Under the pieces are notes generated by a model. It did not search any database. It was not told where the DNA came from and worked only from the letters and a program-made list of their open reading frames with translations. A stretch of DNA of 21,608 nucleotides from IMG/VR virus record IMGVR_UViG_3300006916_000468, positions 1-21,608 of that record; one strand, written 5' to 3'. How positions within the stretch are numbered: position 1 is the first letter of the stretch; each line of letters opens with the position of its first letter. This document shows positions 2,430 through 15,124 of the stretch, piece after piece. A program made the position numbers and the translations under genes. Source of the DNA: a virus.

Positions 2430-2442
2430 ATAACTCAGTTAT
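2430..2442. promoter_or_regulatory. Palindrome copy, ATAACTCAGTTAT (perfect)
   Basis: This is a perfect 6-1-6 inverted repeat overlapping the -10 box of the promoter of the 73-aa gene. Its place would let a bound dimer block RNA polymerase. It is one of seven copies or near-copies in gaps across the window. Confidence 0.75.
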
Positions 2443-2465
2443 ATCAGTGTGATTGTGTGTGTCAA
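2438..2465 (-). promoter_or_regulatory. Sigma70-type promoter for the 73-aa/ATPase transcript
   Basis: On the minus strand, TTGACA (2465-2460) is followed after 16 bases by TATAAC (2443-2438). The -35 overlaps the stop codon of the methyltransferase gene. The -10 overlaps the palindrome at 2430-2442, and the ribosome site of the 73-aa gene lies just downstream. The probable start of transcription falls near 2431. Confidence 0.7.
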
Positions 2466-3682
2466 TATTTACCTGACGATCTTGTAGGTAGCACCGGGCC
2501 GTCTTGGTAGCCTCGTTTGTGGATAACGCCAAACTCTTTCTTCATCACACGAAGCTGCTTTGGTGTGGGTTCAAAGTCGTCGCCCTCTCTATACCAACGG
2601 AGGTCATTGTCATTTGCTCCTGGAGGCCAAACTTTGACCCAACCTTCCATGTCGCGTGCCTCGTCCATAAATAAGAATTGATAAATAAATTCTGAATGTC
2701 GCGTGTAAGGAACGCGGTAGAATCTACCATTTGGATCTATCCACCCACAGTCCTGAGTCGTCTCAAGTTCATCTATGAGACGGGGTCTTTGAAACGTGTA
2801 CCGCATACCAATATATGAAGTTAGCACTTCTTGGTCTCCATCACGTCTGATACCAGCTGGTATGTTTCCTTCATCGACAGAAACAAATTCGTTCATTTCG
2901 TCGTCAAGCTCGTACACCCCTGCCCAAGTTGCTAACTTATACAAGTTCCTACAGTCACTTTTTGTTCCATAAACTTGGTACACATGTTCACCGCTTTCTC
3001 CAACGTCACGAGCAACAATCTCATAAGACATGTCCGGCAAGTCCAGTTCAACATTCTTTTCAAGTCCAATATAGTACGCGAACAACCTGTTACAGAATTT
3101 AAGATGCAGTTTAAAGAAGCGCTCAGCGAAACCTGAGTGACAAGGTCTAGCAATAAAAATAGACGTATTTTCAGTGCAGTCTTTCACTAACTGAACAATG
3201 GTCTCATCTTGAACAACTTGGATCATTGTGTGAGGTTCAGGTCTTCTCATAATATCAAGACCAGTGCACGCGAAACCTTCATCTTGCAATGTTTTGGTCA
3301 TCAAACCTGAACCTGCGCCTATGTCAAGAACAGGGTGGTAACGAAGATGAACGCAAGTTGATAACCACGCTTTGAAATTTTCATTAGGAACGAAAAAATC
3401 GAGGTCTGGCATCATACCAGCCTGTAATATAGCCAATGTGTCAGGACAATGGTCTAATTCATCATCGTTATCTTCTTCGATTTCATCAACACGAACAAAC
3501 CGCCGCGCTTTTTCATGAGGACGCAGTGTGTTGTTGTAAAAGTCTAGCAACGCATGAGCACGCTGCTCAGGTGTGTGCTGATCCCAACCAGGATTGTCAA
3601 TTTCAGAACGAGGTCGTTGATCAAGTTGCTCGGAATGCTCTTGGTCAGAGTCGTCATTTTTCCAGGTGAATGTGCCTTGCAT
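2462..3682 (-). CDS. Class I SAM-dependent methyltransferase, substrate unknown
   Basis: Residues 117-127 of this 406-aa protein (PVLDIGAGSGL) form a textbook motif I for S-adenosylmethionine binding, followed by an acidic residue at the end of the second strand (GLDIM, D143). No DPPY/NPPY motif of DNA amino-methyltransferases and no PC motif of cytosine-5 enzymes is evident at the expected place. The first 80 residues are acidic and probably disordered. Residues from about 320 to 385 (YRVPYTRHSEF to FEPTPKQLRV) look like a separate small domain of unknown role. AAGGA eight bases upstream supports the ATG. The TGA stop lies inside the TTGACA -35 box of the next promoter. It could modify DNA, protein or a small molecule; the sequence does not decide. 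Confidence 0.75.
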   Translation of the reverse strand: MQGTFTWKNDDSDQEHSEQLDQRPRSEIDNPGWDQHTPEQRAHALLDFYNNTLRPHEKARRFVRVDEIEEDNDDELDHCPDTLAILQAGMMPDLDFFVPNENFKAWLSTCVHLRYHPVLDIGAGSGLMTKTLQDEGFACTGLDIMRRPEPHTMIQVVQDETIVQLVKDCTENTSIFIARPCHSGFAERFFKLHLKFCNRLFAYYIGLEKNVELDLPDMSYEIVARDVGESGEHVYQVYGTKSDCRNLYKLATWAGVYELDDEMNEFVSVDEGNIPAGIRRDGDQEVLTSYIGMRYTFQRPRLIDELETTQDCGWIDPNGRFYRVPYTRHSEFIYQFLFMDEARDMEGWVKVWPPGANDNDLRWYREGDDFEPTPKQLRVMKKEFGVIHKRGYQDGPVLPTRSSGKY

Positions 3683-3687
3683 AGTTG

Positions 3688-3882
3688 TTATCCTTGTTTA
3701 AACGTTAGCGCTTCGCGCATGTGCCAATCTAGGTCGTCGCGCACCGAACCAATGCGATGCGCAACAGAATCAAGCGTGCGCGATGTACTGTGGTCAGTTT
3801 CGTTGCGCGCGTCTTGTTCGAACTCCTCAGACAGCGTTTTCAACACGCTGTCCAAGAATGCTTTTGTTTGTTCAGGAGTCAT
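3688..3882 (-). CDS. Small hypothetical protein
   Basis: This 64-aa protein of unknown role is strongly helical and acidic in its first half, with charged heptad-like spacing (EQTKAFLDSVLKTLSEEFEQ). It has no membrane segment. The gap to the upstream gene is only six bases and there is no good ribosome site before the ATG, so translation probably relies on ribosomes finishing the 127-aa gene. Its last codons overlap the AAGGA site of the methyltransferase gene. Position in a tight three-gene run and absence of a competing frame make it a likely real gene. Confidence 0.6.
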   Translation of the reverse strand: MTPEQTKAFLDSVLKTLSEEFEQDARNETDHSTSRTLDSVAHRIGSVRDDLDWHMREALTFKQG

Positions 3883-3888
3883 AAATAT

Positions 3889-4272
3889 TCAGCAAGCTTT
3901 TCTTGCTACCTCTTGTCTGTCACGAATTTTGTCAGCTTCTTCATTCAAGCAGCTTTCAGGAATACGAAGAACGAAGCCGTCTGCCCACTTCATTGCAACG
4001 TCACGTTTAATCTGTTCACACATGTTCTTGACTGAATTACCTCCCGACCATGTTGAACGATTAGACGACGCCATACGCAAAGCTTCTTTGTTTACAGCTA
4101 GTGAAAGAGCGTTCTTGTCTTTTCGATCTTGGTTCAACCAAATCGCAGCAGCAACCTCAAGCATTTCATTCTCGATTTTAGTTGAATAGTCAGAAGAAAG
4201 TTTTTCTAAAGTTTTTTCTACATCCCATGCAGGCGCTTCAGCAAGTTTCTCTTTGTTGATAATATTTGACAT
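3889..4272 (-). CDS. Hypothetical protein, first gene of the leftward operon
   Basis: I do not recognise this 127-aa soluble protein. It is rich in Lys, Glu, Ala and Asn, mostly helical by composition, and has three Trp residues in the pattern AIWLNQ, STWSGG and MKWADG. It starts behind GGAG with six-base spacing and is the first gene downstream of a strong promoter at 4299-4327. That position is typical of genes expressed early in infection. No motif suggests a reaction, and it could be an early host-interaction protein, which is only a guess from location. Confidence 0.65.
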   Translation of the reverse strand: MSNIINKEKLAEAPAWDVEKTLEKLSSDYSTKIENEMLEVAAAIWLNQDRKDKNALSLAVNKEALRMASSNRSTWSGGNSVKNMCEQIKRDVAMKWADGFVLRIPESCLNEEADKIRDRQEVARKAC

Positions 4273-4290
4273 AGTAGACTCCGTTGTTTG

Positions 4291-4303
4291 ATAACTGAGT
4301 TAT
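4291..4303. promoter_or_regulatory. Palindrome copy, ATAACTGAGTTAT (perfect)
   Basis: This perfect copy overlaps the -10 box of the leftward operon promoter. Its centre lies 44 bases, about four helical turns, from the centre of the next copy, so cooperative binding is possible. Confidence 0.78.
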
Positions 4304-4327
4304 ATATCCTAGAAAAGCAGGTGTCAA
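4299..4327 (-). promoter_or_regulatory. Sigma70-type promoter for the leftward operon
   Basis: On the minus strand, TTGACA (4327-4322) is followed after exactly 17 bases by TATAAC (4304-4299). The -10 overlaps the palindrome at 4291-4303 in the same register as at 2430. A second palindrome copy (4335-4347) lies just upstream of the -35. The start codon at 4272 is about 20 bases beyond the expected start of transcription. Confidence 0.75.
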
Positions 4328-4334
4328 GCACATT

Positions 4335-4347
4335 ATAACTGAGTTAT
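4335..4347. promoter_or_regulatory. Palindrome copy, ATAACTGAGTTAT (perfect)
   Basis: This second perfect copy in the divergent region lies upstream of the leftward -35 box and of the candidate rightward promoter. It has no convincing promoter of its own in the shared register, so it may be an auxiliary operator. Confidence 0.75.
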
Positions 4348-4365
4348 TAACACCTTCTTTCTCGA

Positions 4366-4395
4366 TTGCGATTTTAACATGTTGGCACATATTAT
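4366..4395 (+). promoter_or_regulatory. Candidate promoter for the portal transcript
   Basis: TTGCGA (4366-4371) and TATTAT (4390-4395) are separated by 18 bases upstream of the portal gene. The match is only moderate. It is the best rightward candidate in the divergent region; the palindrome at 4335-4347 lies upstream of it. Confidence 0.35.
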
Positions 4396-4443
4396 CACCG
4401 ACAAACGGGCGGAGCCCTCTAAATCCTGACAAGAGGACCGATA

Positions 4444-5943
4444 ATGCCGCGCACAGTTGCAACCGTTCATTCAGATTACACTCGTCGCAATATCCAGTGG
4501 TCCCGAATCCGTGACGCGCTTGAAGGTCAGGACGAGATAAAAGAGAATGGTGAAGCGTACCTAAAGAAACCTGACGGCATGACACAAAGCGCATATGACG
4601 CTTACAAAGATCGTGCGCAATTCTTCCCAGTCATTGAACGCACACTGCGCGGAATGTCCGGCATGGTGTTTCGTCACCCAATCAAGTGCGAATTGCCTTC
4701 ACGCCTCGAGCCACTTAAAGAGGCTGCAACGACTGACGGTCATTCACTTGCCGTTATGGCTGAGAACGTCGTCAATGAGGTCCTCAGCATTGGTCGCTAC
4801 GGGATCCTTGTCGATTATCCGCAGGCGAACACCACAGCAACGTCAATTCCGTATCTTGCGACATACACAGGCGAAAACATAACAGATTGGGAAGTTCAAT
4901 TTGTTGATGGTTTGAGAACGTTGACGCGCGTTGTACTGAAAGATGATTTTGACTCAGATGACGAAGACGTTAACGACGCCGCAGAAATGCGGCTAGAATT
5001 GATTCTCAATGACGAAGGAAACTACGAAGTTCGTCGCTGGAAAGCAGCTGGCTCTGAAAAAGGCACAAATGAAGATTCACCAACATTCGTTATGGTTGGT
5101 GAACCAAAAGTGCCCGTAGTAAATGGAAAGCCTCTGAAACGCATACCATTCGTGTTCATCAACCCTTACGATTTACGTCCTGAGGTTGAGAAACCTCCTA
5201 TGCTTGATCTTGTTGACGTGAACATTGGTCACTATCGCAACTCAGCAGATTATGAGCACGCATTGTTCTTGACTGCGCAACCTACGCCTGTGGCAATTGG
5301 CGCAATCACAGAAAAGAATAAACCCGACGCTATTGGTTCAGGTGCTTTCTGGATTCTTCCTGAAGGATCATCTGCGATGTTCCTTGAGTTTGGTGGTGCA
5401 GGTATTGAGGCACAACGCCAAGCAATGCTCGACAAAGAAGACCGTATGGCTGCGCTAGGCGCGCGAATGATACATGACGGTAAGAATCGTAATGAGGCGT
5501 CAGACACCGCGAAAATGCGCGGCAAAGGCGAAATGTCATTGCTCACCAATGTTGTGAATATGGCAGAGGCGGGAATTGATCGTGCATTACGTATTGCAGC
5601 CGAATGGGTAACTGGTCGTCCTGATGACGTTGAAGTAAAGCTCAACCGTGACTGGGTTGAAACTAAGATGGATCCGCAAACGCTTAATGCGCTTGTGAAG
5701 TCGTGGCAATCAGGTGCAATGTCGCATCAAACGCTATATGAAAACTTACAGTCTGGTGAAATTGCTCCCGTTGATCGTTCTTTTGAAGACGAGAAAGACT
5801 TGATCGAAGAGGAGGGCGGTGATCTTGGTTTAGGCGTAAATCAGCTACTTGGCGCAGCTGCTCAGCAGGCGCCCGAGTCTAAGCCAAAAGAAGACGAGTC
5901 CGGTGAAGAAGAAGCCGCGGGCTCACAAGAAGGCAAAAGATAA
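4444..5943 (+). CDS. Portal protein (DUF4055-like family)
   Basis: This 499-aa protein has the N-terminal pattern of the DUF4055 portal family: a WSRIRD helix, then GEAYL, SAYDAYKDRAQFFPVIERT and LRGMSGMVFR in the first 75 residues. Length fits the family. Portals form the dodecameric ring at one capsid vertex through which DNA is packaged and ejected. The C terminus (after about residue 455) is acidic and low-complexity, EEE and DESGEEEAAG, as in many portals. The ATG has an AGAGGA ribosome site. It is the first gene of the rightward block and is followed two genes later by a Mu F-like head protein, the usual portal partner. The terminase that normally precedes a portal is absent; leftward genes lie there instead. 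Confidence 0.85.
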   Translation: MPRTVATVHSDYTRRNIQWSRIRDALEGQDEIKENGEAYLKKPDGMTQSAYDAYKDRAQFFPVIERTLRGMSGMVFRHPIKCELPSRLEPLKEAATTDGHSLAVMAENVVNEVLSIGRYGILVDYPQANTTATSIPYLATYTGENITDWEVQFVDGLRTLTRVVLKDDFDSDDEDVNDAAEMRLELILNDEGNYEVRRWKAAGSEKGTNEDSPTFVMVGEPKVPVVNGKPLKRIPFVFINPYDLRPEVEKPPMLDLVDVNIGHYRNSADYEHALFLTAQPTPVAIGAITEKNKPDAIGSGAFWILPEGSSAMFLEFGGAGIEAQRQAMLDKEDRMAALGARMIHDGKNRNEASDTAKMRGKGEMSLLTNVVNMAEAGIDRALRIAAEWVTGRPDDVEVKLNRDWVETKMDPQTLNALVKSWQSGAMSHQTLYENLQSGEIAPVDRSFEDEKDLIEEEGGDLGLGVNQLLGAAAQQAPESKPKEDESGEEEAAGSQEGKR

Positions 5944-6117
5944 TGGTAACAACAGCGAGAGTCATACTGAAGGAATATCACTAAACGCGTAGATGCACCA
6001 TGTGACTGATCAATTCGTGGCTTTTATCATATTGTTAACATCTTTTAGCATACCTTATTTTGACAGATTCTTAATTGTTCATTGAACGATTCTTTGTAAT
6101 CGTCCATAGTGGTTCAG
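5944..6117 (+). other. Gap between portal and reductase genes, no supported gene
   Basis: This AT-rich gap of about 174 bases before the terminator holds two small inverted repeats (GTTCATTGAAC and ACGATT-6-AATCGT) and a TTGACA at 6060-6065 without a matching -10 box. A 30-codon hydrophobic frame (5993-6085) lacks a ribosome site. A weak promoter for the reductase may lie here. Confidence 0.35.
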
Positions 6118-6141
6118 CGGGCGTCACAAGGCGCCCGTTTT
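6118..6141 (+). terminator. Intrinsic terminator before the reductase gene
   Basis: CGGGCG, an 8-base loop and CGCCCG are followed by TTTT. It lies 29 bases before the reductase ATG, so it would stop portal transcripts and separate reductase expression unless read through. Confidence 0.7.
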
Positions 6142-6169
6142 CATCACACAAGAGAAAAGGAGCGCCTTT

Positions 6170-8077
6170 ATGTATGGGCCAAGCCATCCCGTCAGCATTG
6201 ACCAACATATCCAGAAATACCGCATTGGCCCAGACGAACAGTTTCAAGACATGTGTTGGCGCATTGCAGACAAACTTGCAGACAACGAGGCACACAGGCG
6301 CGACATTTATCTGACACTACTTCATCAGAATTTTATGCCTGCAGGTCGTGTGCAACGCGCTGTGGGTGCGCCGATGCGAATTTGCGCGCATAACTGCTTT
6401 GTGTCCGGAACAATCAAAGACGATTCCGTAGACATCATCGACAAAGTTTCAGAAGCTTTCCAAACAATGCGAATGGGCGGCGGTATTGGTTACGATTTTT
6501 CAACGCTTCGGTGGCGTGGTGCTTTTATCAAGTCGTTGCGTTCAACAGCATCTGGTGCTGTCTCATTCATGGACATTTACAACGCGGCATGTAAGACAGT
6601 TCGATCAGCAGGCGGCCGACGTGGCGCGCAGATGGGCGTTCTGCGCATTGATCATCCAGACATTGAAGAATTCATCGACGCGAAGACAGCTGCGTTGTCT
6701 GACGATGTGATGAAAGCACAAATGCTTCTAAGCATGAAGAAGACAGAGCTCCAAAAAGCATACGAAGAAAAGCAAGACGATGAAACTCTTGCACGCCTCG
6801 ACTTCTTTGTTGAAATGGAGCCTTTCATGCTCGACATGGTCGAGAAAGTTTCAATTCAAAACAGGTTGTCTGCTTTTAACGTGTCAGTCGCGGTGACTGA
6901 CAAGTTTATGGAAGCTGTTGAATCTGATGGCGACTTTGATCTCGTATTCGATGGTAAAGTTGTTCGAACAGTTAAAGCACTTCCTTTGTGGAACAAACTA
7001 ATGCAAGCCACTTGGGACTGGGCTGAACCAGGTGTGCTTTTCATCGACAGAATAAATTCGATGAACAACCTTTACTATTGCGAAGTCATAGCAGCAACAA
7101 ACCCTTGTGGTGAACAACCACTGCCTCCTTATGGCGCATGTTTGCTTGGGTCTTATGTTGTTCCGAAATACGTTCGAAAATTTGGTGACAAATATTTCTT
7201 TGACGAAGAGGCTTTTAAAGCAGACATTCCAGGCGTCGTTCGAATGATGGACAATGTTATTGATGAAGCTCTTTACCCGCTTCCTCAACAGGAAAGAGAA
7301 GCAAAAGACAAACGTCGAATGGGGCTCGGTGTGACAGGCGTTGCGAACGCAATTGAAGCCATGGGCTTTCCTTATGGTTCAGCTGGCTACATCAAAACAC
7401 AAGATAGAATTCTTCGCATACTTTTGAATGAAGCTTACCGAGCATCAGCTCTTCTTGCAAAAGAAAAAGCGCCTTTCCCTCTCTGGGATAAAGAAAAGTT
7501 CATGAAAGGCGAGTTCATCAATAGTGGCGTATTTGACGATGACGTTCTTGAACTGATCAATGAACACGGTTTGCGCAATTCGCACTTAACGTCCATTGCG
7601 CCGACTGGTACAATTTCATTAACTGCTGACAATATGTCGTCAGGCGTTGAACCCGTTTTCTCATACGTAACTGGTCGCGAGATAATCAATCAAGATGGCG
7701 TTACCAAACAGTACGTTGAGATTGATGACTACGGTGTGCGTGAGTTTAACGTCAAAGGACGACGCGCTGATGACCTCAGCGTTCTTGAACATGTGCAAGT
7801 ATACACCGCTGCTCAACGTTACGTTGACAGTTCAATTTCCAAGACCTGTAATGTTGGCGGAGATGTTTCTTTTGATGACTTCAAGAACATTTATATAGAA
7901 GCATGGAAAGCTGGTGCGAAAGGATGTACTACATTCAGGCTCGATGGAAAACGATTTGGCATTATGAAGTCACTTGACGAGTCAATACCTGAAAACGAGA
8001 TAGAGCAAATGGAAGCGATTGTCTCAGGCGAGGCTTGCGTGTATGATCCTAAGACAGGCACTAAATCATGTGAATAG
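6170..8077 (+). CDS. nrdJ: Class II (adenosylcobalamin-dependent) ribonucleotide reductase
   Basis: This 635-aa enzyme would reduce ribonucleotides to deoxynucleotides with a B12 radical. Visible motifs are NCFVSGT with C76, GGGIGYDFS (103-111), NPCGEQPLP with C313 and E315, and C324 exactly 11 residues later, matching the active-site cysteine spacing known for class II enzymes. RMGLGVTG, TSIAPTGTIS, DSSISKTCN and KGCTTFR follow, and a C-terminal cysteine pair (C623 and C634) could relay electrons. No class I partner subunit lies in the window. Between FIDAK (about 168-172) and LSAFNVSV (233-240), where relatives are compact, there are about 50-60 extra charged helical residues. The gene has a GGAG site, follows a terminator and sits inside the head module, so it behaves as an independent unit. 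Confidence 0.93.
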   Translation: MYGPSHPVSIDQHIQKYRIGPDEQFQDMCWRIADKLADNEAHRRDIYLTLLHQNFMPAGRVQRAVGAPMRICAHNCFVSGTIKDDSVDIIDKVSEAFQTMRMGGGIGYDFSTLRWRGAFIKSLRSTASGAVSFMDIYNAACKTVRSAGGRRGAQMGVLRIDHPDIEEFIDAKTAALSDDVMKAQMLLSMKKTELQKAYEEKQDDETLARLDFFVEMEPFMLDMVEKVSIQNRLSAFNVSVAVTDKFMEAVESDGDFDLVFDGKVVRTVKALPLWNKLMQATWDWAEPGVLFIDRINSMNNLYYCEVIAATNPCGEQPLPPYGACLLGSYVVPKYVRKFGDKYFFDEEAFKADIPGVVRMMDNVIDEALYPLPQQEREAKDKRRMGLGVTGVANAIEAMGFPYGSAGYIKTQDRILRILLNEAYRASALLAKEKAPFPLWDKEKFMKGEFINSGVFDDDVLELINEHGLRNSHLTSIAPTGTISLTADNMSSGVEPVFSYVTGREIINQDGVTKQYVEIDDYGVREFNVKGRRADDLSVLEHVQVYTAAQRYVDSSISKTCNVGGDVSFDDFKNIYIEAWKAGAKGCTTFRLDGKRFGIMKSLDESIPENEIEQMEAIVSGEACVYDPKTGTKSCE

Positions 8078-8086
8078 GAGAATGCA

Positions 8087-8167
8087 ATGCCAAAAGGAAT
8101 GGGTTACGGAAAAGGTAAAAAGGGCGGCAAGAAAGTCGGCGGTAAAAAGAGCGGCAAGAAAAAGTAA
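8087..8167 (+). CDS. 26-aa Lys/Gly-rich basic peptide
   Basis: This short frame starts with ATG behind AGGAG (six-base spacing) and encodes a peptide in which 20 of 26 residues are Lys (11) or Gly (9). It begins MPKGMGYGKGKK and ends in a run of lysines. There is no acidic residue. It lies between the reductase and the head morphogenesis gene, with three bases to the next ATG. A strongly cationic disordered peptide could bind DNA or an acidic protein such as the portal tail, but this is inference. The strong ribosome site and exact fit in the gap support a real gene. Confidence 0.65.
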   Translation: MPKGMGYGKGKKGGKKVGGKKSGKKK

Positions 8168-8170
8168 ATC

Positions 8171-9283
8171 ATGACTTCCTTGAATGAACGTTTTATGGAT
8201 TTTCAAGTCGCACAGCAAGTGCGATGGATCCGGCTACAGAACAGAGAAGTCCGTGAGGCTCTTCTGATCCTTCGTCGAGTCGAAGAGAATCTAAAAACTA
8301 TCCTACAAGGAGCAAACATTGATGAAGGGCGTTTCACGGAAGCACGTTTAAACGCCCTTCGTATTCAAGTCGGGAATCTGATTAAAGCACTTGAGAGTGA
8401 GCTAACCCCCGTACTTGTTTCAAATGTTCGTGATGCTTTAGAAGCAGCGGCTGAAGTTGAAGAAGCTGCTTTCGTTAGAATACTGCCCGCAGGTCTTGAC
8501 GTTACCACGCCTAATTTGGGCGTGCTTCAAACAGCTGCAACTTCAACGTCGTTCAATGGTGCAACGACCACTGAATGGGCAAGAGCATTTCATAGGTCAC
8601 TCACTGAGACAACTTGGCGAACGATTGTTGATGGAATAACCTCTGGTTCAACAAGCGACGATATTGTCCGAGAATTGATCGGAACAAAAAGCGCGCGATT
8701 TAAAGACGGTGCACTACAGGCAAGACGGCGTGGACTTGAAGCTCTTGTTCGAACGTCAATCAATCACGCGACAAATCAAGGTCGTCAAGCAGTCTGGGAG
8801 TCAAACACTCACTTACTCAAAGGTGTTCGATGGGTCGCGACACTCGACACAAGAACAACACCGATTTGCAGGGAACGAGATGGTAGAGTTGGTCCTGTGG
8901 TGGATGACCCAAATTGGACACCGCCTGCAGGTTCATCAAAACTTGATCCACCATTTGCAAGACCACCTGCTCACATCAATTGCAGATCGACAACAGTGGC
9001 CATAACTAAATCCTGGAAAGAACTTGGCTTTGACGTTGAAGACTTGCCTCCCGCAACTCGCGCGTCAATGGATGGTCAAGTACCTGCAAACACTACCTAC
9101 TTTGAATGGTTGACAAGACAGTCGTCTGCAACGCAAAGTGAGGTGTTAGGTCCAGCTCGAATGAAGCTGTGGAAGGAAGGCGGAGTCACGCCTGATAGAT
9201 TTCAAAATGATGCTGGCCACTATTATACTTTGGCGGAACTGAAACGTCGCCAGCCTCAAGCCTTTAAGGATGCAAATCTATGA
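8171..9283 (+). CDS. Phage head morphogenesis / minor capsid protein (Mu gpF-like)
   Basis: This 370-aa protein carries the C-terminal signature of the Phage_Mu_F family: WVATLDTRTTPICRERDG at about 221-238 with C233, then PPAHINCRST at about 265-274, a Cys and His/Cys pattern typical of these minor head proteins. The N-terminal half is helical, as is usual. Proteins of this family bind the portal or enter the capsid and are needed for head assembly. The start lacks a strong ribosome site, so coupling to the preceding 26-aa gene is likely. A downstream in-frame ATG at residue 9 is possible. The stop overlaps the endolysin start by four bases. Confidence 0.82.
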   Translation: MTSLNERFMDFQVAQQVRWIRLQNREVREALLILRRVEENLKTILQGANIDEGRFTEARLNALRIQVGNLIKALESELTPVLVSNVRDALEAAAEVEEAAFVRILPAGLDVTTPNLGVLQTAATSTSFNGATTTEWARAFHRSLTETTWRTIVDGITSGSTSDDIVRELIGTKSARFKDGALQARRRGLEALVRTSINHATNQGRQAVWESNTHLLKGVRWVATLDTRTTPICRERDGRVGPVVDDPNWTPPAGSSKLDPPFARPPAHINCRSTTVAITKSWKELGFDVEDLPPATRASMDGQVPANTTYFEWLTRQSSATQSEVLGPARMKLWKEGGVTPDRFQNDAGHYYTLAELKRRQPQAFKDANL

Positions 9284-9984
9284 CCTTCGAACAGTGGTTG
9301 CAAAGCAGACTAACTTCTCACGGCTTTCCAGTTGGTGGGATTGATGGTATTATCGGTAAGACAACGATTGCTGGCATTAAAGCTTTTCAAAAATCCCGAA
9401 ACTTAACTCCAACAGGAAAAGCTGACGAAGTAACCGTTGCTGCGCTACGTGTCAGTTCTTCATCAGGTGAACCTGTAATTCAAGGGCGTGATGAACTTCA
9501 ACAAAGAACTTCAACACTATCAAGCTTTCCTCGTCAACGTAATGTTGAAAGTTTTTATGGAAAAGTCGGAACCAATCAAACACGAATTACGCCTCCTTGG
9601 AAAATGAGACTTGCGTGGGATAAGCGTAGATTTATCCAAAAAATGACACTTCACGAGAAAGTAGCAGATAGTGCTTCTCGTGCAATGCAACGTGTGTATT
9701 CGAGCTATGGTGACGCAGGAATAAAAAAACTTGGCTTAGATCTTTTCGGCGGTTCGTTGAACGTCAGAAAAATGCGAGGGGGATCTCGTTATTCAATGCA
9801 CAGTTGGGGTATTGCGATTGACTTCGATCCTGAACGAAATCAATTACGCTGGAAAGAGCCTCGTGCAAGATTGTCTCATGATGACGCTGTTCCGTTCTGG
9901 GAAGCCTGGGAAGCTGAAGGTTGGATTGCACTAGGTCGAGAACGAAATTTCGATTGGATGCACGTTCAAGCTGCGAGGTTATAA
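9280..9984 (+). CDS. Endolysin: peptidoglycan-binding domain plus M15 (VanY-like) peptidase
   Basis: Residues 1-55 of this 234-aa protein form a PG_binding_1-like domain (VGGIDGIIGKTTIAGIKAFQ). Residues about 105-234 form a zinc peptidase of the M15 type: SMHSWGIAIDFDP gives H174 and D181 as metal ligands, seven residues apart, EAEGW gives the probable catalytic E213, and WMHVQ gives H228. Enzymes of this type cut peptide bonds in the cell-wall peptide. There is no signal peptide, so release would depend on the holin encoded next. The start overlaps the previous stop (ATGA), and the stop overlaps the holin start (TAATG). A role in DNA injection as a structural lysin cannot be excluded, but the holin neighbour favours lysis. 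Confidence 0.85.
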   Translation: MTFEQWLQSRLTSHGFPVGGIDGIIGKTTIAGIKAFQKSRNLTPTGKADEVTVAALRVSSSSGEPVIQGRDELQQRTSTLSSFPRQRNVESFYGKVGTNQTRITPPWKMRLAWDKRRFIQKMTLHEKVADSASRAMQRVYSSYGDAGIKKLGLDLFGGSLNVRKMRGGSRYSMHSWGIAIDFDPERNQLRWKEPRARLSHDDAVPFWEAWEAEGWIALGRERNFDWMHVQAARL

Positions 9985-10244
9985 TGACACGCCTTGAAAA
10001 AGCGAAAGCGTGGTGGAGACCTGCGTTGGCTTGGTGTTTTGTTTTTGGTTGGTTTGCAACACTCGCAACTATTCTTGCTTTGCTTTGGCTTGGCAGAGTT
10101 ACGCTTTCGGACGCAAGTGGTCTTTTAATCGCTCTTGTTGCAGGTGGAGCTGCTCCAACTACAACTTACGCTCATGGGAGGACAACTGAAAAACGATTTG
10201 GTGTTGATGAAACAACACCCCCTCCTGGATTTCAGCAAGACTGA
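9984..10244 (+). CDS. Holin-like small membrane protein
   Basis: This 86-aa protein has a basic N terminus (MTRLEKAKAWWRP), a first membrane span at about residues 16-37 (LAWCFVFGWFATLATILALL) and a second hydrophobic segment at about 45-60 (SGLLIALVAGGAAPTTTY). A polar, proline-rich tail (TTPPPGFQQD) ends it. This two-span layout fits a holin, which makes pores that let the endolysin reach the wall. The start shares one base with the endolysin stop, and the longer in-frame extension upstream lies inside the endolysin gene. A different small membrane role is possible because sequence alone does not define holins. Confidence 0.72.
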   Translation: MTRLEKAKAWWRPALAWCFVFGWFATLATILALLWLGRVTLSDASGLLIALVAGGAAPTTTYAHGRTTEKRFGVDETTPPPGFQQD

Positions 10245-10404
10245 TTAAGACCTTTTTACTCACATAACTCAGTTTATATCGACCTCGATCAACGGTAGAC
10301 GGCTTTAAACCAGCGCGATAACATAGACGTGCAAAAGCGTTCATTAAGCTGTCTCGGTGTGAAGCAATCACAAATAAACCGTCACGAGGAGACCCTTTGA
10401 TCGT
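10159..10404 (-). pseudogene. Possible remnant coding segment on the opposite strand
   Basis: An open frame without a good start codon or ribosome site lies opposite the end of the holin gene and the gap after it. Read from just after a TAA at 10405-10407 it contains SPRDGLFVIASHRDSLMNAF followed by a helix and strand pattern ending near KLSYVSKKVLI. This resembles the repeated sub-domain of LAGLIDADG homing endonucleases and inteins, but only by eye and without the catalytic signature. It may be chance: one of the imperfect palindromes (10264-10277) falls inside it. Low confidence. Confidence 0.18.
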
Positions 10405-10426
10405 TTAGCTCCGAAAGGAGGTGATC
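10245..10426. other. First part of the 396-bp gap between holin and scaffold genes
   Basis: It contains the degenerate palindrome at 10264, an open frame on the minus strand that may be a relic, and the hairpin CTCC-GAAA-GGAG (10409-10420) carrying the very strong ribosome-binding sequence. No tRNA or convincing gene was seen on the plus strand. Confidence 0.4.
10264..10277. promoter_or_regulatory. Degenerate palindrome copy, ATAACTCAGTTTAT
   Basis: This copy carries one extra T in the right half. It lies 20 bases after the holin stop codon. No -35 box fits it in either direction. It may be a weakened site or chance. Confidence 0.4.
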
Positions 10427-10513
10427 TTGTATCTGGCAAAAGGCCGCGCGTTAAACTGCGTGGCCTTTTGTTCGTTCAACATCAAATTGAACAGTACCTT
10501 ATTTTTAGAATAA
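10427..10513 (+). CDS. Possible 28-aa leader peptide spanning a terminator
   Basis: A TTG codon lies five bases after AGGAGG inside GAAAGGAGGTGATC, which is complementary over 14 bases to the 3' end of alphaproteobacterial 16S rRNA. The frame runs 28 codons through the terminator hairpin at 10437-10470 to a TAA inside the palindrome at 10510. The peptide has no recognisable features. If translated, ribosomes would cover the hairpin and could prevent termination, so the peptide may be a by-product of attenuation. A GTG two codons earlier in the same frame would overlap the ribosome site. Confidence 0.3.
   Translation: MYLAKGRALNCVAFCSFNIKLNSTLFLE
10437..10470 (+). terminator. Long-stem terminator-like hairpin
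   Basis: A 13-base-pair stem with a single G-U pair (CAAAAGGCCGCGC with GCGTGGCCTTTTG) and an 8-base loop. The A and U tracts lie within the stem, so it could work in both directions. It follows the lysis genes and lies inside the possible leader peptide frame. Confidence 0.7.
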
Positions 10514-10514
10514 C
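10487..10514 (+). promoter_or_regulatory. Candidate promoter for the scaffold/capsid transcript
   Basis: TTGAAC (10487-10492) and AATAAC (10509-10514), spaced by 16 bases, lie downstream of a terminator. The -10 overlaps the palindrome copy at 10510-10522 in the same register as the two leftward promoters, which raises its credibility although the hexamers are weaker. Confidence 0.45.
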
Positions 10515-10522
10515 CGAGTTAT
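10510..10522. promoter_or_regulatory. Palindrome copy with one mismatch, ATAACCGAGTTAT
   Basis: This copy overlaps the -10 of the candidate scaffold/capsid promoter. A half-site (ATAACTC at 10533-10539) follows two helical turns downstream. Confidence 0.6.
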
Positions 10523-10640
10523 AGCATCTTCAATAACTCGCTTGCAGGTCTGAAGTCCTTTTTCTATCTTCGGGTTGACTGACAAACCTGAGGGCCTCAG
10601 GAGCGGTCTAGGCAGAGCCGAAGAGAAGGATAATATCACT

Positions 10641-11408
10641 ATGCCATTTTTTGACCAAGAAGGTAAAGAAATCGAACTTGGTGCAGATACCCCCGAGGTA
10701 AAAGCATTGCTCGATTCCGCTATTAAGGAAGCGACTTCCGGACTAGCAGCAAACCGCGACGAGATTTTGGGCGAGAAGAAAACTCTCCAACAGAAACTCG
10801 ATGAAATGAGCCAGACTTGGGGCGACTATGATCCCGAAGCTGTCAAAAACATTATGTCGCGACTTGAAAACGACGAGGAAGCAAAACTCCTCGCAGAAGG
10901 CAAAACTGACGAAGTTATCGCTCGTCGCACAGAACGCTTGCAAGCGGACCATGCGAAACAGATCGAGAACTTGGAAACGAAACTTGCAGAAGCAATGGGC
11001 AACTACGATGGCGCTCAAAGCACTGTTAAGCAGCTCAAAGTTGAAGGCGGTCTCCGTCAAGCAGCTGTTGAATTAGGCCTCGTTCCGTCAGCCATTGAAG
11101 ACGCGTTGTCGCGTGCAATGGGCGTCTTTAAGGTCGGAGATGATGGTTCACTTGTGCCTGAAAACTCAAGTGGTACTATTTATGGCAAAGATGGTAAGAC
11201 TCCTATGAGCCCCGCTGAATGGCTCGAAACTATGAAAGAGACTGCACCACATTGGTTCCCAGCTCCTTCTGGTGGCGGTGCAGGCGGCGGGAACAATCGT
11301 GGCGGAAGTCACACAATTAGCCGCGCTGATGCGCGTGACGTTCAGAAATATCAAGCTGCTAAGAAAGCAGCTGCTGATGCTGGCGTAGCGTTGCAAATCG
11401 TAGCTTAA
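10641..11408 (+). CDS. Capsid scaffolding protein
   Basis: This 255-aa protein is highly charged and helical, with a coiled-coil-like middle (residues about 45-140, rich in Glu, Lys, Gln and Leu), a glycine-rich linker (SGGGAGGGNNRGG) near 215-230 and a basic, helical C terminus (ADARDVQKYQAAKKAA), as scaffolds use to grip the coat protein. It sits immediately before the major capsid gene, the standard place. I chose the ATG at 10641 because GAAGGAT lies upstream; a TTG at 10575 in the same frame would add 22 residues of non-conserved look. Scaffolds guide procapsid assembly and leave or are cleaved before packaging. Confidence 0.8.
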   Translation: MPFFDQEGKEIELGADTPEVKALLDSAIKEATSGLAANRDEILGEKKTLQQKLDEMSQTWGDYDPEAVKNIMSRLENDEEAKLLAEGKTDEVIARRTERLQADHAKQIENLETKLAEAMGNYDGAQSTVKQLKVEGGLRQAAVELGLVPSAIEDALSRAMGVFKVGDDGSLVPENSSGTIYGKDGKTPMSPAEWLETMKETAPHWFPAPSGGGAGGGNNRGGSHTISRADARDVQKYQAAKKAAADAGVALQIVA

Positions 11409-11412
11409 TCTC

Positions 11413-11457
11413 GAACCGCCGCGCTGATGCGCGGTTCATTAAATCGCGCTTCGGCGC
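11413..11457 (+). other. Two GC-rich hairpins in the capsid gene leader
   Basis: GAACCGC pairs with GCGGTTC (11413-11437), and GCGC-TTCG-GCGC (11446-11457) is a stem capped by the very stable C(UUCG)G tetraloop. Neither is followed by a U-run. They lie between scaffold and capsid genes and may stabilise or process the capsid mRNA. Confidence 0.5.
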
Positions 11458-11481
11458 AAGGCAATCGAAAGGAAAATTACG

Positions 11482-12711
11482 ATGCCAAATACTCTGGGTA
11501 ACTACAATCCCGAGTTCTACGCTCAGGAGGCCCTGATCCAGCTCTACAAAGCGCTGGGAATGGCAGGCCGCGTTCACCGTGGTGCTGAGCAAGAACGAAA
11601 TGGTTCAGGCAACCAAAAAGGTGACACGATCAACCTTAAACGCCCAACGAAATTCACCGCTCAAGAGCACGTCAAAGGTACGGGTTCAAGCGCGCAGGAT
11701 GTTGTTGGCGAAAACGTTGCAATCAAACTGAACAACCACCAGGAAGTTAAGTACAAACTCACTGACCGTGAACTTGCTTATACGACCGAACAGATCATCA
11801 CCGATCACATCACGCCTGCTGCTTACGCACTTGCAGACAAGATCGACCAAGACTTGCACGCGTTGGGTTCCAAAGTTGGTCCTAAAGCGCACATTTCTGG
11901 TTCGGCTTCAAGCGGCTTCATTACTGGTCCTCGTAAAGTTCTTCGGAACAACGAAGTTCCAATGGACGCTGGCATGATCCATTACCTTGTTGACTCCGGC
12001 ATGGAAGCAGCATTCTTGGATCTTGGTATTTTCCACGAAGCACGTATCACAGGCGACGGTGCGAATAACGCTGCATTGATGAATGGCTCTTTGGGTCAAC
12101 GATTTGGTGTTGAAGTGTTTGCATCGCAGAACGCTGACGTTGATATGAGCGCAATGAGTTCGACTGCTACTGCGTCTGACGCGTCAGGCGACAGTGTTGG
12201 TGCTGTTAACAACGCGAGTGGTTATGAAGCAAATGCGAACACAGTTGCTGTTGATGGTTTCACAGGTGTTGAAACTGTTCAAATTGGTGACACGTTCACA
12301 ATTGCAGGCGACCCAACGGTTTACACGTTGACTGCTGACACTACGTTTGCAGCTGGCGCAGGCAACCTTGTGTTCTACCCTGACCTTCGTCGGAACACTG
12401 CAGACGACGCTGTTGTGACTTTCAATCAACTTGACGCAATTCAAGAAGCTGGTCACATCCGCAATCTTATGTTCCACAAAAATGCGTTTGCACTTGCATT
12501 TGCTCCTCTACCAATGACTGGTGACGGTCGTGGTGCGGAAATGGCAACTGTGACTGACGAGATCTCCGGTCTGTCTGTTCGTGCTCGTATGTACTATGAC
12601 GGTGATACTGCTTCGAATTTCGTTGCACTTGATGCTCTTTATGGTACTCAGGTTCTTGACCCAATGCTCGGCGCGCAAGTGCTTCGTGCATCAACGGTCT
12701 ATCCTGCGTAA
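11482..12711 (+). CDS. Major capsid protein (P22 coat-like, HK97 fold)
   Basis: This 409-aa protein follows the scaffold gene and has P22-coat-family features: an N-terminal arm, GDTINLKRP at about 48-56, a long helical spine region, and an inserted domain (about 260-305) with QIGDTFTIAGDPTVYTL that resembles the extra beta domain of P22-like coats. The C-terminal third (AIQEAGHIRNLMFHKNAFAL) contains the sequence usually seen in this family. It forms the icosahedral shell. A good AAAGGA site precedes the ATG, two GC-rich hairpins lie in the leader and a strong terminator follows, fitting the most highly expressed late gene. Confidence 0.88.
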   Translation: MPNTLGNYNPEFYAQEALIQLYKALGMAGRVHRGAEQERNGSGNQKGDTINLKRPTKFTAQEHVKGTGSSAQDVVGENVAIKLNNHQEVKYKLTDRELAYTTEQIITDHITPAAYALADKIDQDLHALGSKVGPKAHISGSASSGFITGPRKVLRNNEVPMDAGMIHYLVDSGMEAAFLDLGIFHEARITGDGANNAALMNGSLGQRFGVEVFASQNADVDMSAMSSTATASDASGDSVGAVNNASGYEANANTVAVDGFTGVETVQIGDTFTIAGDPTVYTLTADTTFAAGAGNLVFYPDLRRNTADDAVVTFNQLDAIQEAGHIRNLMFHKNAFALAFAPLPMTGDGRGAEMATVTDEISGLSVRARMYYDGDTASNFVALDALYGTQVLDPMLGAQVLRASTVYPA

Positions 12712-12720
12712 GAAACAGCT

Positions 12721-12748
12721 TAGGCGGGGCTTTTAGTCCCGCCTATTT
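12721..12748 (+). terminator. Intrinsic terminator after the capsid gene
   Basis: TAGGCGGGGC and GTCCCGCCTA form a 10-base-pair stem with one G-U pair and a TTTTA loop, followed by TTT. It begins nine bases after the capsid stop codon. Confidence 0.8.
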
Positions 12749-12783
12749 GCGTGTAACATTACCCGACATGAAAGGACAATGAA

Positions 12784-13044
12784 ATGGCAAAAGACATGAC
12801 CACTTATCCTGTCTCAAAAGGCAAGGATGGAAAATTCTTCGGTTATGCTGATGCGACTCAAATTGCGAAAAGCAAAGGCAAACTTAAACTGTTTGACCCA
12901 AGTGCAGCTGAGCGCGTGAAGATCGAAAAAGAAGTTGCTGCAGTTGAGGCGAAGGAAGCCGACACAGCAAGCAAAAAAGAAGAAGCAAAACAAGCTGGCG
13001 GTGCTGACGCATCAGCAGTGAAGAAAGGCCCCGCGTCTAAATAA
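12784..13044 (+). CDS. Small Lys/Ala/Glu-rich protein after the capsid gene
   Basis: I do not recognise this 86-aa protein. The first 40 residues look folded (TYPVSKGKDGKFFGYADATQ), and the rest is a low-complexity Lys/Glu/Ala helix and tail (EVAAVEAKEADTASKKEEAK). It has an AAAGGA ribosome site. It lies between the capsid terminator and a second terminator or attenuator. Many phages have a small capsid decoration or completion protein at this place, but nothing in the sequence proves such a role. Confidence 0.7.
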   Translation: MAKDMTTYPVSKGKDGKFFGYADATQIAKSKGKLKLFDPSAAERVKIEKEVAAVEAKEADTASKKEEAKQAGGADASAVKKGPASK

Positions 13045-13066
13045 GCACGCGCTGGTACTAATACCA

Positions 13067-13093
13067 GGCGTGTCTTAACGGGCACGCCTTTTT
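13067..13093 (+). terminator. Intrinsic terminator with a competing upstream hairpin
   Basis: GGCGTG pairs with CACGCC, followed by five T. The same GCGTG can instead pair with GCACGC at 13045-13050 within a longer hairpin (CTGGTA-CTAA-TACCAG inside). The two folds exclude each other. Confidence 0.7.
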
Positions 13094-13108
13094 ATTCCTG
13101 GAGGTAAC

Positions 13109-13375
13109 ATGGACGATCAAACTCAAATCAGCTTGACAAGGGCAGAACTAAAGTCGCTGCTTGAGGAGGCCGTCCAAGACGCTTTCACAAAAATGGGTAT
13201 GGACGTTACCGACCCAATCGAAATGCAAAGAGATTTTCAACACTTGCGTGAGTGGCGAGTAGCTGCGGCAGCGGTTCGAAAAAAAGGACTTCTAACACTC
13301 GTCGGTATAATCGTCGCAGGATCAGCAGCTGCTTTCTGGTTAGGCTTCAAAGCGATGATGGTACCACCATCTTAA
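13109..13375 (+). CDS. Small single-span membrane protein (DUF6127-like)
   Basis: This 88-aa protein has an acidic helical N-terminal part (LTRAELKSLLEEAVQDAF and MGMDVTDPIEMQRDFQHLREW), then Arg/Lys-rich residues and one membrane span at about 61-80 (LLTLVGIIVAGSAAAFWLGF). The pattern resembles small DUF6127-type proteins in phages and prophages of alphaproteobacteria; this assignment is from memory of the pattern only. GGAGG precedes the ATG. It could be a lysis accessory protein, such as a second holin or spanin-like factor, or unrelated. Confidence 0.65.
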   Translation: MDDQTQISLTRAELKSLLEEAVQDAFTKMGMDVTDPIEMQRDFQHLREWRVAAAAVRKKGLLTLVGIIVAGSAAAFWLGFKAMMVPPS

Positions 13376-13400
13376 TTATTGCTTGGATGCGTGACGGTCT

Positions 13401-13413
13401 TGAACTTAGTTAT
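13401..13413. promoter_or_regulatory. Degenerate palindrome copy, TGAACTTAGTTAT
   Basis: Eleven of 13 positions fit the ATAACT-N-AGTTAT pattern. It lies in the 63-base gap before the metallophosphoesterase gene. No good -35 box is visible in the matching register. Confidence 0.4.
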
Positions 13414-13438
13414 ACGAACAAGATCAAAAGGATAACGT

Positions 13439-15103
13439 ATGCCAAAAACAATAACAGTTACGCCTCAACAAACTTATGATGCGCTAGTCGACAATCGTGG
13501 TAACATGCGCGCAACTGCTCGTGACCTTGGCATATCTCGTGGTGCAGTAAAGTACCGACTTGATCGCGCTGCTCGTGAACTCGGACTTACTTTTGACAAA
13601 CCAACGTCAGGCGGCGTAATTGCGCAGACAGCTGCGGTGAAGCGTCCTTTGCCTACCAAAGGCAAGTTGAAGCGTTACATCATTACAGCTGCACAAAACA
13701 ACACTGACGTTCACACAGAGTTTTTCGTGAACCTTGTTGCATATGCAGAAGCTCTCGACGCAGAGCTTATGGTTGGTACATACTCCTACAATCGCGCGTC
13801 GTACTCTCAAAAATCAACGAAACGAAATCTTGGGCCCACCGAAGACGACAGGCAAGGCGATTGGTATGACCCAATCCTTACTCCTTACTTCTGTGACGAG
13901 ACAGTTGAACTTGCACCGATGCTTGAATGGCGCGGTGAATTGAACATTCAGCCAACAGCAAAACGTCCTTTGACGGGGCTTGAAACTTATACACAGCGAA
14001 AATCCGGTATATTTCCTCACGCAAAAATTCAGCTCACTTCCGTCGCAGGAACAAAAGCCGACGGCGCAAAAATGAATTACACGACGGGCACAGCAACTAT
14101 GCTGAACTACGTCAAGAAAAAAGCAGGGCTTGAAGCTGAATTTCATCATGCCTATGGCGCGTTGATCATCGAAGTTGACCATCTTGGCGACTGGTTCGTC
14201 AGGCAGTTACACGCTGACACTGATGGTAGTTTCTACGATATTCCCGACCTTGGTCAAAAAGGCGCTATCATTGTAAAAGATGGCGAAGTTAAGACAAATG
14301 GTGTTCCTGTTGAAGCGATCAACTGGGGCGATATTCACACAGAAGTTATTGACCCTGAATGTAAGGCCCTTGCTTTTGACAAAGGTGGAATGCTTGATTC
14401 TTTGAAACCAAAGCACCAACTTGCACACGACATTATTGACTTCGCAGTCAATAAAGGTCACCATGATCGTCACAACTCGCACATGCGCTTCCGCAAAAAA
14501 GTTCTTGGTCAGACAAACGTCCGTTCCGAGGTTGAAGGCGTCAAGAGTATGCTTGATTATATGCGCCGCGACTGGTGCTTGACTGTTGTTGCAGACGCAA
14601 ATCACGATAGGCATCTCGAACGTTGGTTAAACGAGAATGATCATCGTCACGACGACACGAACGCAATCTTCATGCTTGAGTGTGAACTCGACTTCAGGCG
14701 CGCTATTGAGAAAGACCCAAAACGTAAATACTTATTCCTTCATGAAGCTTTGAAACGAATGGGCCTGCCAAACGATGACTTATTCCTTCATGCCGATGAC
14801 CAGTTTGTCATCTGTCCTGATGAAGGTGGTGGGATCGAATGTTCACTTCATGGTGACATAGGACCTAACGGTTCACGCGGATCACCAATTGGTCTCAGTA
14901 AGATGGGTCGTCGTGCGAATACAGGTCACACGCACTCAGCTTGTATCTTAGACGGTCTCTACGTTGCGGGCACGTTATCATTGCTTGAACAAGAATGGAA
15001 CGTTGGTCCCTCGTCATGGTCACATTCGCAAATTGTTACCTATCCAAACGGTAAACGCACCATTGTGACTTTTTATAATGGTAAGTGGCGTGGCAACACC
15101 TAA
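13439..15103 (+). CDS. Helix-turn-helix protein with calcineurin-like metallophosphoesterase domain
   Basis: Residues about 10-50 of this 554-aa protein form a Fis-type helix-turn-helix (GNMRATARDLGISRGAVKYR). The large remaining part carries metallophosphoesterase motifs in order: GDIH (297-300), DANHD (386-390), HGD (471-473) and GHTH (496-499), which together supply the two-metal site of this fold. An extra His-rich segment (KGHHDRHNSHMRF, 339-351) sits between the first and second motifs. Such a combination suggests DNA binding followed by phosphodiester or phosphomonoester cleavage. It resembles in size and plan a group of phage proteins linked to DNA transfer or host DNA breakdown, but I cannot verify homology. 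It lies between capsid and neck genes, preceded by a degenerate copy of the recurrent palindrome. Confidence 0.75.
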   Translation: MPKTITVTPQQTYDALVDNRGNMRATARDLGISRGAVKYRLDRAARELGLTFDKPTSGGVIAQTAAVKRPLPTKGKLKRYIITAAQNNTDVHTEFFVNLVAYAEALDAELMVGTYSYNRASYSQKSTKRNLGPTEDDRQGDWYDPILTPYFCDETVELAPMLEWRGELNIQPTAKRPLTGLETYTQRKSGIFPHAKIQLTSVAGTKADGAKMNYTTGTATMLNYVKKKAGLEAEFHHAYGALIIEVDHLGDWFVRQLHADTDGSFYDIPDLGQKGAIIVKDGEVKTNGVPVEAINWGDIHTEVIDPECKALAFDKGGMLDSLKPKHQLAHDIIDFAVNKGHHDRHNSHMRFRKKVLGQTNVRSEVEGVKSMLDYMRRDWCLTVVADANHDRHLERWLNENDHRHDDTNAIFMLECELDFRRAIEKDPKRKYLFLHEALKRMGLPNDDLFLHADDQFVICPDEGGGIECSLHGDIGPNGSRGSPIGLSKMGRRANTGHTHSACILDGLYVAGTLSLLEQEWNVGPSSWSHSQIVTYPNGKRTIVTFYNGKWRGNT

Positions 15104-15111
15104 TTCAATCA

Positions 15112-15124
15112 ATAACTAAGTTAT
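15112..15124. promoter_or_regulatory. Palindrome copy, ATAACTAAGTTAT (perfect)
   Basis: This perfect copy lies nine bases after the metallophosphoesterase stop and before the neck genes. No TTGACA-like -35 fits in either direction, so here it may need an activator or act on elongation rather than on initiation. Confidence 0.7.

Follow-up and report, generated by a model that had tools for sequence, protein, structure and literature searches.

The 21.6-kb virus contig analysed here over its whole length (21,608 nucleotides; IMG/VR virus record IMGVR_UViG_3300006916_000468, hereafter the window) carries repeated copies of a 13-base-pair (bp) palindrome, ATAACT-N-AGTTAT, in gaps between its genes. 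We consider it probable that this palindrome is a promoter-overlapping operator of a phage-encoded, homodimeric helix-turn-helix (HTH) regulator, most likely the protein gp73 known from a related phage, and that it forms part of an autoregulated brake on early and late promoters. An earlier note on the window had read these copies as operators spread over the whole phage and bound by a symmetric protein dimer. Such a set is well supported in silico by strict exclusion of the sites from genes, by their retention in the same gaps of relatives, by a fixed position on promoters and by a conserved phage-encoded XRE/Cro-type protein whose own gene is preceded by a site; that a dimer binds them is what we infer.

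Copies of the palindrome in the window and in related phages

Perfect copies of the 13-mer were found in the window at 2430, 4291, 4335 and 15112, with C, G, G and A as their respective centre bases, and a copy with one mismatch at 10510 (Table 1), all at the places given in the earlier note. The four perfect copies compare with 0.00 expected, and none arose across 100 dinucleotide shuffles; allowing up to one mismatch gave five copies, again against 0.00 expected. At up to two mismatches, seven copies were counted against a shuffle mean of 0.44 (maximum 2 in 25 shuffles), five of which were the good copies, i.e., the four perfect ones and the one-mismatch copy. The other two, at 10264 and 13401, had been listed as degenerate copies. 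Both were dropped as operator copies, as they are close to the background of 0-2 matches that shuffles give at two mismatches and gained no support from the comparison of gaps in relatives; no site was present upstream of the DNA-transfer gene, where 13401 lies, in any relative compared. None of the five good copies falls within a credible gene, which agrees with the earlier observation that no perfect copy lies inside one. The 2430 copy sits in the gap 2419-2461, and the TTG-started open reading frame that runs over it is a mere upstream extension of an ATG-started gene of 74 amino acids homologous to R26L gp107.

The structural genes of the window match those of Dinoroseobacter phages vB_DshS_R26L (R26L) and R5C and of phage Pan1, all filed under Nanhaivirus, and judged by these matches the window is part of a Nanhaivirus-like phage. 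For comparison, near-identical or related contigs were collected from viral contigs. Across the relatives, the outer ATAA...TTAT was fixed and two inner positions varied (C/G and T/C), which gave the consensus ATAASYNRSTTAT; the centre inside the ATAA-N5-TTAT core follows SY-N-RS. The 13-mer is therefore real but too narrow as a motif, and the description of fixed arms around a variable centre, which is true within the window, holds across relatives only for the outer ATAA...TTAT.

The consensus ATAASYNRSTTAT occurred 5 times in the window, 15 times in R26L, 6 times in R5C, 14 times in Pan1 and 10 times in the relative G021, compared with 0.00-0.02 per genome in dinucleotide shuffles. Counts of the ATAA-N5-TTAT core were 15 in R26L, 7 in R5C, 14 in Pan1 and 5 in the window. 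None of eight other AT cores built alike occurred in R26L, R5C or Pan1, and each was seen at most once in the window. In 35 near records, which partly overlap one another, there were 109 sites versus 1 for the reversed pattern, and 37 distant relatives had 2 versus 4. On these counts, the motif is confined to the phage group of R26L, R5C, Pan1 and the window. The same restriction leads us to give very little credence to a host regulator that the phages exploit. R26L and R5C are known from the same alphaproteobacterial host and their early promoters look like host sigma-70 promoters, but the motif, among the viral records compared, is limited to one phage group, which does not fit such a regulator well, and no host factor is needed if the phages encode a regulator whose gene has a site ahead of it.

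A weight matrix built from 112 distinct sites (score threshold >6) found 18 places in R26L, all of them in gaps of a genome with a coding fraction of 0.937, and none in the reversed genome. When positions were compared with the gene tables, the sites of R26L, R5C and Pan1 overlapped annotated genes by at most 4 bp, of the stop codon. Both half-sites were required for entry into the 112-site set, so half-site conservation within it is circular, whereas the distances to the -35 element, the avoidance of genes and the association with gp73 are not. The sites come from related phages and are not independent events, and very small binomial values serve for ordering and are not probabilities.

The gaps that carry the sites are shared as well. 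The gap before the scaffold gene has a site in 9/9 of the long genomes that cover it, as does the gap after the DNA-transfer gene (9/9, 77-80 bp before the next gene), the window being included in both counts; for the gap before gp73 the figure is 7/7. Sites also precede the portal gene in R26L (two), Pan1, G002, G009 and G021. In the window, the centres of the 4291 and 4335 copies are 44 bp apart, and R26L keeps such a 44-bp pair before its portal gene (75733/75777). Recurrent sites were found before the ribonucleotide reductase, portal, helicase and QueD-gp63 genes. The two outcomes that had been named as speaking against an operator set, a motif equally frequent within genes and gaps not kept by relatives, did not occur; exclusion from genes was strict and the same gaps were kept.

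A one-mismatch operator copy was also seen at position 228 of contig L016, upstream of the gene at L016:276-767 (R26L gp2). The 163-amino-acid product, labelled hypothetical, is a LuxI-type autoinducer synthase (Pfam 1.2e-15, PDB matches 5e-9), and it would be of interest if this operator governed a quorum-sensing synthase carried by a phage.

Position of the palindrome on promoters

Sequence was read outward for up to 45 bp from each of the 112 distinct sites. Of 45 occurrences of TTGACN, 27 ended 7-8 bp short of the palindrome and 12 ended 17-19 bp short of it (39/45 together); for ACCT[AT]A (ACCTWA), the distance was exactly 8 bp in 24/38. In the left register (17-19 bp), the -10 box is formed by the near half of the palindrome, TATAAC, at a spacer of 16-18 bp; in the right register (7-8 bp), it is formed by the far half, TATNNN, at a spacer of 17-18 bp. 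The two registers are 11 bp, or about one helical turn, apart. At 95 of the 112 sites, TTGNNN or ACCTNN stood at one of these five distances (7-8 or 17-19 bp), compared with 17, 24, 23 and 31 for equally wide control distances. Most TTGAC-type sites are then followed by a conserved CAACGGAG ribosome-binding site. A search of R26L gaps that started from TTGAC[AG] and did not require the palindrome found one in 5 of 8, and a sixth keeps the far half only. Viral contigs scanned with TTGACR-N6..17-TATAACYNAGTTAT yielded 18 stretches, with gap lengths piling up at 6, 16 and 17; matches outside the group were mostly single and are probably chance promoters.

Both promoter types occur in the window. 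The 2430 promoter is of the left register (TTGACA, 16 bp, TATAAC) and has the CAACGGAG ribosome-binding site behind it, and at the 4291 copy the minus-strand TATAAC (4304-4299) is the -10 box of a leftward promoter of the early block. The ACCTWA type was found ahead of the scaffold gene and of the tail genes, where it stands in promoters without a normal -35 box; late genes thus seem to combine the same palindrome with another -35-like element. Before the tail genes, the TAA of ACCTAA doubles as the stop codon of the DNA-transfer gene. In the scaffold gaps of most relatives, a half-degenerate palindrome of the ATAAGTCGCTTGC type lies about 23 bp downstream of the late operator, as ATAACTCGCTTGC does in the window, and is perhaps a second dimer site.

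Table 1. Candidate operator copies and -35-like elements in the window
Feature	Position	Strand	Remarks
Operator copy ATAACTCAGTTAT, perfect	2430..2442	none	Right half on the minus strand is the -10 box TATAAC (2443-2438) for leftward genes
-35 box TTGACA	2460..2465	-	Leftward promoter bearing the 2430 operator
Operator copy ATAACTGAGTTAT, perfect	4291..4303	none	Divergent gap between early and late genes
-35 box TTGACA	4322..4327	-	Leftward promoter, 17 bp from TATAAC of the 4291 operator
Second perfect operator copy in the divergent gap	4335..4347	none	Portal side, without a recognisable -35 box
ACCTTA element	10496..10501	+	Candidate -35 element of the late promoter, at exactly 8 bp before the 10510 operator
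Operator copy ATAACCGAGTTAT	10510..10522	none	Precedes scaffold and capsid genes; fully matches the group consensus ATAASYNRSTTAT
Degenerate second copy ATAACTCGCTTGC	10533..10545	none	Follows the 10510 copy at 23 bp, about two helical turns
ACCTAA element	15098..15103	+	8 bp upstream of the 15112 operator
Operator copy ATAACTAAGTTAT, perfect	15112..15124	none	Between the DNA-transfer (A1-like) gene and tail genes

We propose that the half-site TATAA is fused into the promoter as its -10 box. In the left register, 17-19 bp behind TTGACN, a bound dimer would lie over the -10 box and the start site; in the right register, 7-8 bp behind TTGACN or 8 bp behind ACCTWA, it would lie over the spacer and the -10 box. 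In every register the -10 box would thus be covered by gp73, which is most simply read as repression of initiation, with autoregulation. As it accumulated, gp73 would shut its own promoter together with early and late promoters and so act as a genome-wide brake or timer.

The resemblance of the TATAA half-site to -10 boxes, and the frequent location of the site between divergent genes, would also suit a symmetric -10 box that makes promoters bidirectional and has no dedicated binding protein. We find this quite improbable, as no site had convincing -35 boxes on both sides; the only one to be labelled twice, at window 4291, has a proper box on one strand and a chance TTGAC on the other. The half not used as the -10 box is retained too, though sigma-70 does not need it, an argument that is partly circular since sites were chosen with both halves. 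An intrinsic terminator was ruled out as well: a 6-bp AT-rich stem with a one-base loop is unsuitable, and a terminator scan listed none of the sites.

The rigid 8-bp spacing of ACCTWA at late genes, which would suit a contact with polymerase, and the lack of a normal -35 box there have another possible meaning. The palindrome may be an activator or promoter-recognition element: bound by gp73 or another phage protein, it would bring in or redirect host RNA polymerase, chiefly at the late promoters with ACCTWA. Such a role is unlikely, since the same site accompanies an ordinary TTGAC box at early promoters, in two registers relative to the -35 box, and an activator overlapping the -10 box would be unusual. 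Activation at the ACCTWA promoters themselves is compatible with the strict spacing. Within the operator interpretation, we infer the identity of the binder (gp73), its dimeric binding and its repressing rather than activating effect, the last with least certainty at the ACCTWA promoters.

gp73 as the candidate binder

R26L gp73 (43803-44000) encodes 65 amino acids, is annotated as hypothetical and is a lone gene that faces away from its neighbours. Homologues were found in all seven long genomes that cover the region (R26L and R5C, Pan1, G021, G025, G002 and G024; 67-89% identity), and among 50,697 phage records gp73 occurs solely in this group. The centre of the palindrome lies approximately 38-44 bp before the gp73 start codon in all of the eleven contigs found with gp73 and in Pan1, G021, G025 and R26L; the copy in G024/L138, ATAAATCGCTTAT, is one base off the consensus. 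The gene lies outside the window, which does not reach it. Contig L136 carries gp73 and shares a sample with a contig whose capsid is identical to that of the window, so L136 and the window may be the same phage.

PHROGs assigns gp73 to transcription regulators, and its recognition-helix residues Q29, S32, N33, Y34 and R35 are invariant in 13 homologues. An AlphaFold model (mean predicted local distance difference test score 83) has the form of an XRE-type HTH bundle, with modest-score matches to Aca2, Aca10, C-proteins and the 434 and P22 repressors; Aca1, Aca2 and Aca10 are among the top structural matches. An HTH-domain scan of about 39 R26L and window proteins gave convincing domains only in gp73 and in the A1-like DNA-transfer protein. 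We regard gp73, a 65-amino-acid XRE/Cro-type protein that resembles the 434 repressor, as the most likely binder of the palindrome.

The A1-like protein raises the question of whether the sites are operators for a different phage protein. Its N-terminal PucR-type HTH (HTH_30) scores above the Pfam cut-off in the window copy (13439-15103; E value 3.6e-8), and the gene is present in every long genome covering the region, with a site just after it. We nevertheless hold it very unlikely that this or some other phage protein is the binder: the A1-like family is widespread (1125 phage records) and the motif is confined to this group, a narrow range that gp73 shares, and no site lies in front of the A1-like gene. 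Given its N-terminal HTH_30, the A1-like protein may in its own right also bind DNA sequence-specifically.

Several observations weigh against gp73-mediated repression through these operators. Both Pfam matches of gp73, to HTH_19 (1.9e-5) and HTH_3 (0.0028), are below the cut-off, its best PDB sequence match, the 434 repressor, is not significant (E value 0.6), and the A1-like protein is a possible binder as another conserved HTH protein. More than half of the R26L gaps of at least 45 bp carry no site, and 17 of the 112 sites have no recognisable -35 element. A sigma-70 consensus scan of the window showed no promoter excess (21 versus 18.8); the scan requires a T as the sixth (last) base of the -10 box and so passes over TATAAC and these promoters. 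Operators at late promoters exceed what a simple early-gene Cro needs, and registers fixed to the promoter could mean that the palindrome belongs to promoter recognition. The more distant relatives G033 and L041-L044 lack the motif, and no replacement palindrome was found in G033 and L041-L043; the contigs of these relatives do not cover the gp73 region.

Comparison with known systems and phage lifestyle

In lambdoid phages, 434 Cro and the 434 repressor bind operators of the form ACAA-N6-TTGT. The phages studied here resemble that system in having a small XRE/Cro-type HTH protein and an operator with fixed 4-bp outer ends and a variable centre, placed on promoters. The 434 operators, however, are clustered at one switch region, whereas the 13-bp ATAA-N5-TTAT sites number 6 to 15 per complete genome and extend over early and late promoters, in phages without a known second repressor or lysogeny genes. 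Two features of Cro/CI (XRE) systems were found here, namely a phage-encoded XRE/Cro-type HTH protein and symmetric operators that overlap promoters, including that of the regulator itself.

The SP-beta element SPBRE is a 15-bp repeat in intergenic promoter regions that was first seen by sequence analysis and later shown to be bound by the phage-encoded master repressor MrpR, which is related to tyrosine recombinases (PMC10516654). It is likewise a repeated intergenic promoter element of one phage genome, but SP-beta is a temperate prophage, whereas the phages considered here, with a 65-amino-acid HTH protein as the candidate, have been reported as lytic. Aca repressors are small HTH phage proteins that bind inverted repeats within the core promoter and repress, their own promoter included (PMC9410906). 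The proposed action of gp73 would be similar, except that Aca controls its own acr-aca operon, whereas the sites described here cover many promoters genome-wide and gp73 stands alone. The logic of the palindrome is nearest to Cro/CI-type operators and to the SPBRE/MrpR set.

The earlier note had likened the palindrome to mycobacteriophage stoperators. In the cluster A mycobacteriophage L5, these are asymmetric, oriented with transcription and bound by a two-domain monomer, and many stop elongation, including at sites away from promoters (PMC9283540). The likeness lies in many 13-bp sites dispersed over short intergenic spaces genome-wide (15 in R26L and 14 in Pan1, all in gaps) under one phage regulator. 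The fit is otherwise poor, as ATAASYNRSTTAT is a palindrome without orientation, 95 of the 112 sites have a -35-like element at promoter distances, and the sites overlap the -10 box. A stoperator array was rejected on symmetry and promoter position.

What is new here is an operator half-site that doubles as the -10 box, in two registers and at early and late promoters, in phages described as lytic and repressor-free. Literature searches found the motif and a function of gp73 in no report. The paper on R26L reports no integrase, excisionase or repressor, and the phage is described as lytic. No related capsid above 30% identity was found in genome contigs (best 29%) or plasmids (best 27%), which is consistent with a lytic lifestyle but is mere absence. 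Dispersed operator sets are known from temperate phages, in which the prophage is silenced, and a tight set in a marine group described as lytic raises the question of what is gained by braking all promoters, or whether these phages are strictly lytic. We tentatively suggest that a supposedly lytic genus may run most of its promoters through one Cro-like protein, either as a genome-wide timer, a new use of Cro, or as the trace of a dormant state. This would be an undescribed state of a plasmid-like or pseudolysogenic kind, with the entire genome silenced by one protein. The analysis also provides promoter maps, from sequence alone, for a whole and mostly uncultured phage group, and points to a role for a gene so far labelled hypothetical.

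A second palindrome, GTTTAAAC (often CGTTTAAACG), was present in 20 copies in R26L (PP882867.1; e.g., 20004, 33829 and 61081), 17 in R5C and 16 in Pan1, both in genes and in gaps, and also in G021, G002, G024 and the window (3 copies). Other palindromes of the same composition were absent from R26L, R5C and Pan1, and the GTTTAAAC palindrome has no tie to promoters. At the left end of the window, the product of a minus-strand gene (108-659) is a short protein similar to part of a DNA polymerase; a comparable short gene, gp115, is found in R26L in addition to its full polymerase, gp51.

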